Assembly: GCF_900176375.1 (NCBI RefSeq)
Contig: NZ_FWYF01000005.1
Coordinates: forward strand, 124,001 to 188,000
Direction of reading: 5' to 3'
DNA length: 64,000 nucleotides
From: Reichenbachiella faecimaris
GTDB lineage: Bacteria > Bacteroidota > Bacteroidia > Cytophagales > Cyclobacteriaceae
The notes beneath the pieces are model-generated. The model worked only from the letters and a program-made list of their open reading frames with translations. It made no database searches and was not told where the DNA came from. This document shows, in pieces, positions 21,645 through 36,349 of this stretch (its first letter is position 1; the number at the start of each line of letters is the position of its first letter). A program made the position numbers and the translations under genes.

Positions 21645-21708
21645 AAATAAAAAAGCTGCCTAAATTTAGTATAATTCAGGCAGCTCAGCGATGTTGTTAT
21701 TGTTTGTC

Positions 21709-33548: not shown

Positions 33549-35285
33549 TTAGATTCTAGCCTGATAGGTATAGAGATCATAGTATCTGCCTTCTTTTGCA
33601 ATCAATTTATCATGGGTTCCAGATTCGGCAATCTGACCTTGCTCTATTACTAAGATTTGATCTGCTTGTTTGATCGTACTCAATCTGTGAGCGATTACAA
33701 ATGTGGTTCTTCCTTTCATTAATGTTTTTAAACTTTCTTGAATGAAGGACTCGCTTTCAGTATCCAAATTGGAAGTGGCTTCATCCAGTATCAATACCCT
33801 TGGGTCAGCAAGTACTGCTCTGGCTATCGCAATTCTTTGACGCTGACCACCTGATAACTTGACTCCGCGCTCACCAATCAAAGTATCTAACCCATCTTCA
33901 AATCGATCAGTAAATTCCTGTACATGTGCGGCTTTGACGGCTTGTAGCAATTGTTCTTCTGTGGCGTCAGGGCGAGGGAATAATATATTCTGACGAATGG
34001 TTCCTTCAAACAAAAAATCATCTTGAAGTACAACACCGAGTTGGTTTCTATAGCTGTTGAGTGTGACTGTAGATAAGTCTACATCATCGACCAGGATTTT
34101 TCCAGACTGTGGACTGATGAAGGAGGCCACTAGCCCGGCAATAGTCGATTTTCCAGACCCAGATGTGCCAACTAGCGCTGTCACCGAGCCTGGCTCAGCT
34201 TTGAAGGATATTTCTTTGATTACATTTTTTTCTTCATCATAAGCGAAACTTACTTGGTCAAAAGTAACAGAACCATTAATTCTTTCCATTTCACTCACGC
34301 GATTTGGGTTTTCGGATTCAGTCGCCATGGACATGATTTCCTCTGTACGGTCTAGTCCGGCAAATGCCTCTGTCATTTGACTGCCTATGTTACTCATCTG
34401 CACAATTGGAGCGATCATAAATCCCAGGTATAGAGTGAAAGATAAAAATTCTCCAAAAGTCAAATCATCATTGATAATCATGTATCCACCAATACCCATA
34501 ATACCCGCAGTTGCCAATCCTAAAAGGAAGGTGGCCGAACTTGTCACTAAGGCAGTAGATGTCAAGCTCTTTTTTACATTTTCGTATAAACGAAGCGCAC
34601 CTGATTCAAAGGTCTCTATTTCCTGCTCTTCTGCATTGAAGCCTTTGATGACTCTAATACCGTTCAGTGTCTCAGTGAGACGGCCTGTTACTTCAGCATT
34701 GATTTTACCTCGGTTTCTGAATATGGGTCGGATATAGCCAAACGCCTTCAGGGAGATCACACCAAAAATGATCACAGGTACTAAAACATAGAGTGTCATC
34801 AATGGACTAATTCTTATTAATAGTATTAAAGACAAAATAGCTGCCAGAGAGCCACCAAACAATTGTACCAGACCAGTACCAACCAAATTCCGAACACCTT
34901 CCACATCACTCATGATTCGAGAGACCAGCGATCCGCTCTTGTTTTCATCAAAGAAGTTGATCGGAAGCTGAATGATTTGTTTTTGGACCTTTACCCGTAA
35001 TTGAGCAATCAAGTGCTGAGCTTCTACACTGAGAAGTCTGGTCAAAGCAAAACTGGTAGTAGCTTGTATGACAATGGCTCCAACAACTACGGCGAGCAAG
35101 GTTTTGAGCATTTCAAAATCCTTGTTGCTGATGACATCATCTATAAGAATCTGACTGGCCCAAGGTAATACCAAACTAGCCAGTCTGCTTACAATGATTA
35201 ATACCAGACCAATTAGTAATAAATTTTTCCTTGGAAGAACAATGGTTTTGAAAACGTGGCCTAAAGAGGCTTTAGATTTACTCAT
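33549..35285 (-). CDS. ABC exporter, fused membrane and ATPase domains (MsbA-like)
   Basis: A 578-residue half-transporter that works as a homodimer. The membrane domain (about 1-320) has six helices, from LLLIGLVLIIVSRLA onwards. The ATPase domain has Walker A GTSGSGKS, the Q-loop LGVVLQDDFLFEG, signature LSGGQRQRIA and Walker B VLILDEATSNLD. ATG 35285 fits the family N-terminus; a TTG four codons earlier is also open. MsbA-like exporters move lipids, LPS or drugs; the substrate is not shown. Upstream lies a 45-base palindrome followed by a T-run, which may control expression. Confidence 0.92.
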   Translation of the reverse strand: MSKSKASLGHVFKTIVLPRKNLLLIGLVLIIVSRLASLVLPWASQILIDDVISNKDFEMLKTLLAVVVGAIVIQATTSFALTRLLSVEAQHLIAQLRVKVQKQIIQLPINFFDENKSGSLVSRIMSDVEGVRNLVGTGLVQLFGGSLAAILSLILLIRISPLMTLYVLVPVIIFGVISLKAFGYIRPIFRNRGKINAEVTGRLTETLNGIRVIKGFNAEEQEIETFESGALRLYENVKKSLTSTALVTSSATFLLGLATAGIMGIGGYMIINDDLTFGEFLSFTLYLGFMIAPIVQMSNIGSQMTEAFAGLDRTEEIMSMATESENPNRVSEMERINGSVTFDQVSFAYDEEKNVIKEISFKAEPGSVTALVGTSGSGKSTIAGLVASFISPQSGKILVDDVDLSTVTLNSYRNQLGVVLQDDFLFEGTIRQNILFPRPDATEEQLLQAVKAAHVQEFTDRFEDGLDTLIGERGVKLSGGQRQRIAIARAVLADPRVLILDEATSNLDTESESFIQESLKTLMKGRTTFVIAHRLSTIKQADQILVIEQGQIAESGTHDKLIAKEGRYYDLYTYQARI

Positions 35286-35302
35286 AAGATGGGGCAATAA
35301 AA

Positions 35303-35347
35303 ATATTCTAATCTATTACGGCAATTTGCCAAAATAGATTAGAATAT
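35303..35347 (-). promoter_or_regulatory. 45-base palindrome with T-run in ABC exporter leader
   Basis: Positions 35303-35317 and 35333-35347 are perfect 15-base inverted repeats. After two mismatched pairs the inner bases 35320-35324 and 35326-35330 pair again around one central base. On the minus strand a run of T (TTTTTATT) follows, so RNA would form a long hairpin like an intrinsic terminator only 18 bases before the ABC exporter ATG. It is the end of the upstream transcript, an attenuator, or a repressor site. Confidence 0.75.
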
Positions 35348-35364
35348 CTGAGTAAGTCTGTTAG

Positions 35365-35392
35365 AAAATTTAATTCATGAGCATGAGTCCAA
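35365..35392 (-). promoter_or_regulatory. Candidate promoter of ABC exporter
   Basis: On the minus strand TTG (35390-35392) is followed after 17 bases by TAAATTTT (35365-35372), seven of eight matches to TAnnTTTG. If real, transcription starts just before the 45-base hairpin, which would then be in the leader. Confidence 0.3.
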
Positions 35393-35476
35393 CTGAAGCA
35401 TTGATCGTTTGACTGATAAGTTTTCGCCTCATAAAATTAGTCATGGATACTAGTAGGAGGTAAGTATCAGTGTTCT

Positions 35477-36349
35477 TTATTCTTCTATGACCACAGCCAT
35501 CCATTTTGAGTCTGGACTGATGGAAAGGCGCGAAGCTTCCGATAAGTTGAACGAATCCATGTTTGCAACTAGTTTCCAGCTTTGATCTGTCGTAGGGTTG
35601 AACTTGTAGATTTTTTGTTTGTTGCTTATAAATGCAGTACCATCTGGTGACCAGGTCATATCTTCAGCTTCCTTTATGCATTCAGTAATGTAGGTCACTT
35701 TGTCCGTAGAGGGATCGTAGCTGTTTACATACCAAATGTCATCTGACTCCTTATGGATAAAACTGATCGTTTTTTGGTTTGGTATTCGACTGAGTGATCT
35801 GCCTGGGTTCATCATGATGATTTTAAACTGAGCATTTCGTGTATTCCATTCCTGTAGGGAAGGGGGTGAGCCTAAAACGAATGAGAACACGGTTTTCTTA
35901 TCATACCAGCAGTAGTAGCCAATTTTTTGTTTAGAAGGGATGATTTTGGGTTCGCCACCTTTTAGTGGGTATTTAGCTAATACCTGACTTCCATCTTTAG
36001 CCAGAATTATAGCGGAAATATACTTGCCATCTGGTGTTGGTTTTGGAGAGAATTCACTGCCTGGAGTATTAGTTAGTCTTACTTTTTCTTTGGTAACAAA
36101 ATTGAACTTCACTATATCTGTTTGATTGTCAAACGTAGCGGCATACACCATCTCTTCACTATTTAGAAATGCAGGTTGATTGTCATAGCCTGGATTACTG
36201 GATATATTCGTTGGATTGGCTAGTTTGTATAAGCCATTTTCTTGTGAGAGTTCAAACAAATAGACCTCAGATGCTGACTGTGCTGATCCAGCTGAAAATT
36301 TGGCTAAAAGCATGATTACCAATAGTCTGGTGGCAATAATTCTACTCAT
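35477..36349 (-). CDS. Exported TolB-like beta-propeller protein
   Basis: A 290-residue protein with signal peptide (LLVIMLLAKFSAGSAQS). It contains WD40-like/PD40 blades: NTPGSEFSPKPTPDGKYISA, DMTWSPDGTAFIS and RLSISPDSKWMAVV, as in the TolB propeller. Such proteins bind partners or small ligands in the periplasm. No catalytic residues are visible. Its stop lies 192 bases before the ABC exporter gene, so it may belong to a separate transcript. Confidence 0.78.
   Translation of the reverse strand: MSRIIATRLLVIMLLAKFSAGSAQSASEVYLFELSQENGLYKLANPTNISSNPGYDNQPAFLNSEEMVYAATFDNQTDIVKFNFVTKEKVRLTNTPGSEFSPKPTPDGKYISAIILAKDGSQVLAKYPLKGGEPKIIPSKQKIGYYCWYDKKTVFSFVLGSPPSLQEWNTRNAQFKIIMMNPGRSLSRIPNQKTISFIHKESDDIWYVNSYDPSTDKVTYITECIKEAEDMTWSPDGTAFISNKQKIYKFNPTTDQSWKLVANMDSFNLSEASRLSISPDSKWMAVVIEE

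Follow-up and report, generated by a model that had tools for sequence, protein, structure and literature searches.

A terminator-like hairpin conserved directly ahead of an ABC exporter gene in Reichenbachiella

The palindrome and its genomic setting

The window analysed here is a stretch of 64,000 nucleotides from Reichenbachiella faecimaris (assembly GCF_900176375.1, contig NZ_FWYF01000005.1, positions 124,001 to 188,000), and positions without a locus name refer to it. On its minus strand, an EamA gene and a PD40 propeller gene precede an ABC exporter gene, and a 45-base palindrome occupies the junction between propeller and exporter (Table 1). The best NCBIfam match of the exporter is MsbA_lipidA with a score of 455.9, which lies below the curated cut-off of 602, so that "MsbA-like" is used as a description and not as a statement of membership.

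Table 1 Features at the junction between the propeller and exporter genes.
Feature	Position	Strand	Remarks
MsbA-like ABC exporter, 578 aa, ATG 35285	33549..35285	-	Pfam ABC_membrane + ABC_tran
T-rich tail TTTTATT	35296..35302	-	Exporter strand only; T-rich in 7/7 species
Putative RNA hairpin	35303..35347	-	15-bp outer stem, 2x2 mismatch, 5-bp inner stem; 7/7 exporter-bearing genus members; covariation
5' flank AGACTTACTCAG	35348..35359	-	Within 61-nt exact match 35299-35359 to congener G005
Possible remnant: end of lost outer-membrane-protein gene + spacer	35348..35397	-	Local alignments to G002, G005
Beta-propeller (PD40 / TolB-like) gene	35477..36349	-	Upstream of hairpin by about 130 nt, same strand

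The near-perfect symmetry reported in a preliminary description of this DNA was confirmed: the two outer arms (35303-35317 and 35333-35347), 15 bases each, complement each other perfectly and share a single centre at 35325 with an inner 5-bp stem (35320-35324 and 35326-35330), the 2x2 mismatch separating the two stems in the minus-strand RNA. Taken as a single repeat, the palindrome has 22-nt arms with a complementarity of 91%. The outer arms are AT-rich (G+C 0.13) and the inner stem holds three G-C pairs. The minus-strand T residues and nearby ATG of the same description were likewise found, as an interrupted T-run directly 3' of the stem and a gap of 17 nt between stem and start codon; no T tail is present on the opposite (plus) strand.

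The palindrome is real and far above chance. It is the only perfect inverted repeat in the window with arms of at least 15 bases and a loop of at most 30, none occurred in 20 of 20 first-order Markov copies, and five such repeats, the exporter palindrome among them, turned up in the 464 kb that were scanned out of 4.71 Mb of genome. The fold of the minus-strand RNA from 35276 to 35380 reached z = -6.3, with none of 200 shuffles equally good. While a terminator scan with loops of 3-8 does not list the exporter hairpin, separate terminator scans tolerating one mismatch picked it up. The search for further copies proposed in the preliminary description returned the palindrome itself alone; with one copy in the genome, and not the several expected of a dispersed palindromic repeat of the REP or MITE type, the repeat-family reading was ruled out.

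Conservation and covariation within the genus

Close exporter orthologs (69-100% identity) are present in 29 of 59 genomes searched, namely the window's own, six congeners and 22 from other genera, the best named ortholog being that of Marinoscillum pacificum (78%). The congener G006 contains merely a 36% relative. In all seven exporter-bearing members of the genus, the window's genome included, the hairpin precedes the orthologous exporter. Covariation was computed on an alignment of these seven sequences (A2), in which the 15-bp outer stem is paired in 98.1% of 104 cells and, as a control with the partner moved by 1-3 columns, in 32-47%, a comparison that flatters the stem because the structure was derived from the same sequences. 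Changes on both sides of a pair were found in 12 cells of four pairs; 12 cells were reached by none of 500 shuffles, and the same holds for the covariation score (0.337 vs 0.171). The number of both-sided pairs is not above the shuffle control (four were reached by 314 of 500), and few events may lie behind the stem changes. One-sided changes affect three cells, and all are U-A to U-G in the exporter-strand RNA, which would be C-A mismatches if the opposite strand were transcribed.

The covariation, the direction of the U-G wobbles and the T tail on the exporter strand together argue for an RNA hairpin transcribed toward the exporter. The terminator-like hairpin that the preliminary description had placed before this gene is supported by the same three observations, and the sequences point to a palindrome acting as a terminator-like RNA hairpin in the exporter direction rather than as a DNA operator.

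Pairing is not the only property that has been retained. Eight of the 15 stem pairs are invariant and the left-arm sequence TAATCTATT is unchanged in all seven species, a sequence constraint beyond pairing that exceeds the needs of termination; the loop shows no conservation in the same alignment. Fourfold synonymous sites of the exporter gene are saturated relative to G005 (identity 0.284, n = 222, composition expectation 0.269), and the 61 nt around the hairpin are identical between the two genomes. When the 85 orthologous gaps in a stretch of 184 kb are ranked by exact match (median 19 nt), this one comes sixth; a tRNA and a leader region are among those with longer matches. Searches of the 59 genomes with model R1 gave matches at E <=1 in 18, with strong matches (E 3.3e-10 or better) at the seven exporter sites only. 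Among the 13 weakly matching loci inspected, several contain T-runs like ordinary terminators and two (L146, L163) do not. Outside the genus, 80 named loci yielded one weak match (E 0.37).

History of the upstream genes

In all six hairpin-bearing congeners, a lipoprotein gene and then an outer-membrane-protein gene lie ahead of the hairpin on the same strand. The stem begins about 20-35 nt after the stop codon of the outer-membrane-protein gene in each of them, a usual place for terminators, and the exporter ATG follows close after. Of the copies in G002, the lipoprotein belongs to DUF4136 and the outer-membrane protein has no match in Pfam. Each of the two genes is present in six of eight genus genomes, and neither was found in the window's genome (97% complete) or anywhere in the genome of G006, which is also the only one of the genus to lack a close ortholog of the exporter. 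In G002 and G005 the propeller comes first, then the lipoprotein, the outer-membrane protein, the hairpin and the exporter; in the window's genome the hairpin comes next after the propeller.

The sequence bordering the hairpin on its upstream side (35348-35397) aligns locally with the end of the outer-membrane-protein gene of G002 with a score of 49 (shuffle maximum 40, none of 300 as high) and with that of G005 with a score of 42 (one of 300 as high); alignments to the other four congeners were not above shuffles. When the 21 nt adjoining the hairpin (35348-35368) were removed, the likeness was no longer above shuffles (99 of 300 for G002, 48 of 300 for G005). That the last part of the lost gene survives here as a remnant is likely but not secure. 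Most likely, the gene pair was deleted in the lineage of the window and the hairpin was retained. The loss of the two genes represents a natural experiment on whether the hairpin is tied to the preceding or to the following gene.

Promoters at the junction

The promoter candidate directly upstream, also part of the preliminary description, was not supported. The sole minus-strand sigma-70-like site at this spot (35332-35305) lies inside the hairpin, and it was dropped because such sites occur at chance frequency in the scanned stretch (10 found, 10.9 expected). The motif TAnnTTTG is described as the -7 box of the phylum (PMC7366714), and its strict form is missing within 400 nt upstream of the exporter ATG in all seven species. 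In the 120 nt before 154 genes, only 24 such boxes were counted, and in four of six congeners the lipoprotein gene has none upstream either, so that the absence of the box before the exporter says little. Only the window's genome and G005 have a loose TATTTTG, located where the left arm borders the loop.

Since the 17 nt between stem and ATG are too few for a promoter of the usual size, exporter RNA must be produced by read-through or start within or before the hairpin. Reported median 5' UTR lengths are 24 nt in F. psychrophilum, with a leaderless share of 5.5% (PMC9723704), and 32 nt in B. thetaiotaomicron (PMC7366714).

Hairpins abutting start codons elsewhere

In two stretches with 196 orthologous gaps, 51 terminator-like hairpins were found, of which 38 with an upstream gene on the same strand were kept. 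The eight hairpins lying at most 40 nt from a co-directional start show identities of 0.89-1.00, compared to 0.21-0.97 for the other 30 (p = 2.7e-5), where the 40-nt threshold was set after a first, smaller hairpin set, one of the eight is weak (-8.9 kcal/mol) and the 30 include both strand readings of some palindromes. With the exporter hairpin left out the difference persists (p = 1.1e-4), as it does when the comparison is restricted to the 14 co-directional hairpins beyond 40 nt (p = 0.004). Proximity to a start was controlled for with 83 co-directional gaps, in which the last 53 nt ahead of the start reach a median identity of 0.79 (exporter 0.98, tied third); sequence before starts is thus already conserved, and the effect partly reflects position and not the hairpin. 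As a group, start-abutting hairpins are better conserved than other terminator-like ones, in part for positional reasons.

Of 106 terminator-like hairpins detected in 464 kb, 49 lie within ORFs and 57 are intergenic, and eight of the latter are at most 40 nt from a co-directional start, with ORFs of at least 100 aa taken from the first ATG and start positions therefore approximate. The window itself contains another T-run hairpin (21645-21708), 8 nt ahead of a class-III aminotransferase gene, that is near identical in the window's genome, G005 and G002 and was not seen in the other five of eight genus genomes. Its presence in three of eight indicates that start-abutting hairpins can come and go, and that the exporter hairpin is better kept. 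Two further arrangements were observed in loci outside the junction. At L126:17910-17981 (G000 C6), a short hairpin with T-run lies 23 nt ahead of the next start and has TAAATTTG immediately upstream, a candidate for a promoter overlapping a terminator. At L115:11073-11125, a perfect palindrome with 24-base arms, an A-run and a T-run lies between convergent genes and is probably a two-way terminator.

Beyond the genus, a looser scan for hairpins within 100 nt upstream of the exporter gave 12 of 80 named loci and one of 22 unnamed other-genus loci, several of them without a true T-run. In Pontibacter, four of 18 loci (L098, L101, L103, L107) have a strong hairpin with T-run 20-21 nt ahead of the exporter start codon; TTTGTCGTA follows the T-run in each of them, and their sequences show no relation to the hairpin of the window. 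About 25 nt ahead of an exporter ortholog from another family, a very long inverted repeat of about 30 pairs was found (L014; the 110 nt before position 1501 fold with -50.4 kcal/mol). The start-abutting arrangement is not special to the exporter gene or to the genus. No title on start-abutting terminators in Bacteroidota was met in a literature search, by which absence in print is not proven. The 5' UTRs of E. coli have been described as enriched in inverted repeats at about 20-45 bp ahead of the start codon, with fewer of them in the small region before start codons (PMC6060812).

Comparison with known systems

A G+C-rich stem is typical of intrinsic (Rho-independent) terminators without strictly defining them. 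The exporter hairpin resembles this class in its long and stable stem (z = -6.3, covariation in seven species), in the T-rich tract directly 3' of the stem on the same strand and in its distance from the preceding stop codon in the congeners. It differs in the AT-rich outer stem, the interrupted T-run, the unusually conserved sequence and the immediate vicinity of the next start codon. Based on this comparison, the hairpin would work like an intrinsic terminator with an atypical G+C content, membership being not proven, and the AT-rich outer stem together with the interrupted T-run suggests that terminator strength may be modest.

The F. psychrophilum transcriptome offers two further points of reference (PMC9723704). 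Partial terminators between genes, described there as class [3'-PT], likewise have a terminator-like hairpin with transcription expected beyond it; a difference is that the gene after the exporter hairpin begins 17 nt past its stem. Leader-peptide attenuators of flavobacterial amino-acid operons also place a terminator-type hairpin just before a start codon, but no leader peptide or conserved alternative fold was found ahead of the exporter. An arrangement that looks like a cysteine leader-peptide attenuator was observed in the window's genome but outside the window itself (L116:7673-7817, G000 C5). Translated by eye, its short ORF, MMACCCCCAPNWCLWESYNL, contains a run of five Cys codons; a terminator-like hairpin comes next, and about 27 nt beyond it starts a gene of the PALP family (PF00291), to which cysteine synthases belong. 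Of this gap, 126 nt are identical to G005.

A partial terminator and its alternatives

The explanation we favour, with somewhat better than even confidence, is that the hairpin is a fixed partial terminator in the exporter direction and that read-through feeds the exporter. Placed where an upstream transcription unit borders on the exporter gene, it would be met by polymerases that have come through the lipoprotein and outer-membrane-protein genes in the ancestral state and through the EamA and propeller genes here. The stem would fold, polymerase would pause at the T-rich tail and the majority of transcripts would stop, while a minority of polymerases would cross the 17-nt gap into the exporter. 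The hairpin would thereby both insulate the exporter and fix a low exporter-to-upstream ratio. We infer termination at the hairpin and read-through as the source of exporter RNA, with no dedicated sensor involved.

As the main rival, and with a probability that is low but appreciable, a promoter could be embedded in the terminator. Transcription of the exporter would then start in the loop or right arm, and without a left arm its RNA would not be terminated. Such a second signal could account for the identity to G005 next to saturated fourfold sites, for the unchanged TAATCTATT and for the stronger conservation of start-abutting hairpins as a group, and the hairpin of the same genome directly preceded by TAAATTTG (L126:17928-17935) offers a possible parallel; on the other hand, the strict box occurs in none of the seven species and the loose one in two, the loop is unconserved and conservation near starts is partly a matter of position. 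Regulated attenuation, likewise raised in the preliminary description, is possible, as the exporter could hardly have a promoter of its own downstream of the stem, yet improbable. An unspecified signal would toggle the hairpin, or the 5' flank would pair with the start codon. The survival of the hairpin after the loss of two upstream genes fits such a switch, as does the like geometry of the apparent attenuator before the PALP-family gene. Pairing of flank and start reaches -9.6 kcal/mol in the window's genome (1.1% of shuffles as good) and is matched by 3.5% of shuffles in G005, but in the other five of seven species it does not surpass 95% of shuffles, and sequestration of the start codon by the flank was rejected as a shared mechanism on these grounds. 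The start codon is predicted to be partly paired in most species, with differing partners and in folds without a shuffle control. A sensor in the form of a leader peptide (sought by eye only), an aptamer or a conserved alternative pairing was not recognised, and an Rfam search of the hairpin gave two matches (E 0.2 and 0.95) that are far below gathering scores and were rejected.

The other suggestion of the preliminary description, a large DNA operator through which a regulator would control the exporter, is disfavoured and very unlikely. The inner arms are symmetric and conserved in sequence and the palindrome stands as a single copy beside one gene, but one-sided changes that are RNA-type wobbles on one strand, the T tail, a 45-bp span with an unconserved middle and a paired core without a second copy in the genome all argue against binding by a protein. 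Least probable, and hardly to be expected, is a hairpin that stabilises or processes the mRNA between cistrons of one transcript without termination; it would suit the position between co-directional genes in seven species, but the T-rich tail after the stem in all seven would be superfluous for stabilisation.

Implications

The exporter hairpin is a real terminator-type junction and an ordinary kind of element, with an unproven regulatory role, and it illustrates a gene placed immediately behind a terminator. Start-abutting hairpins that are nearly frozen while other terminator-like hairpins drift form a wider pattern. Perhaps, although this is rather doubtful, they are in this genus a class in which the hairpin bears a second signal at the sequence level, a promoter for the downstream gene within the hairpin itself. 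If so, transcripts from upstream would fold and stop, while the gene's own transcripts would start past the left arm and escape, and the exporter hairpin, kept after the loss of its original upstream genes, would be the clearest case.
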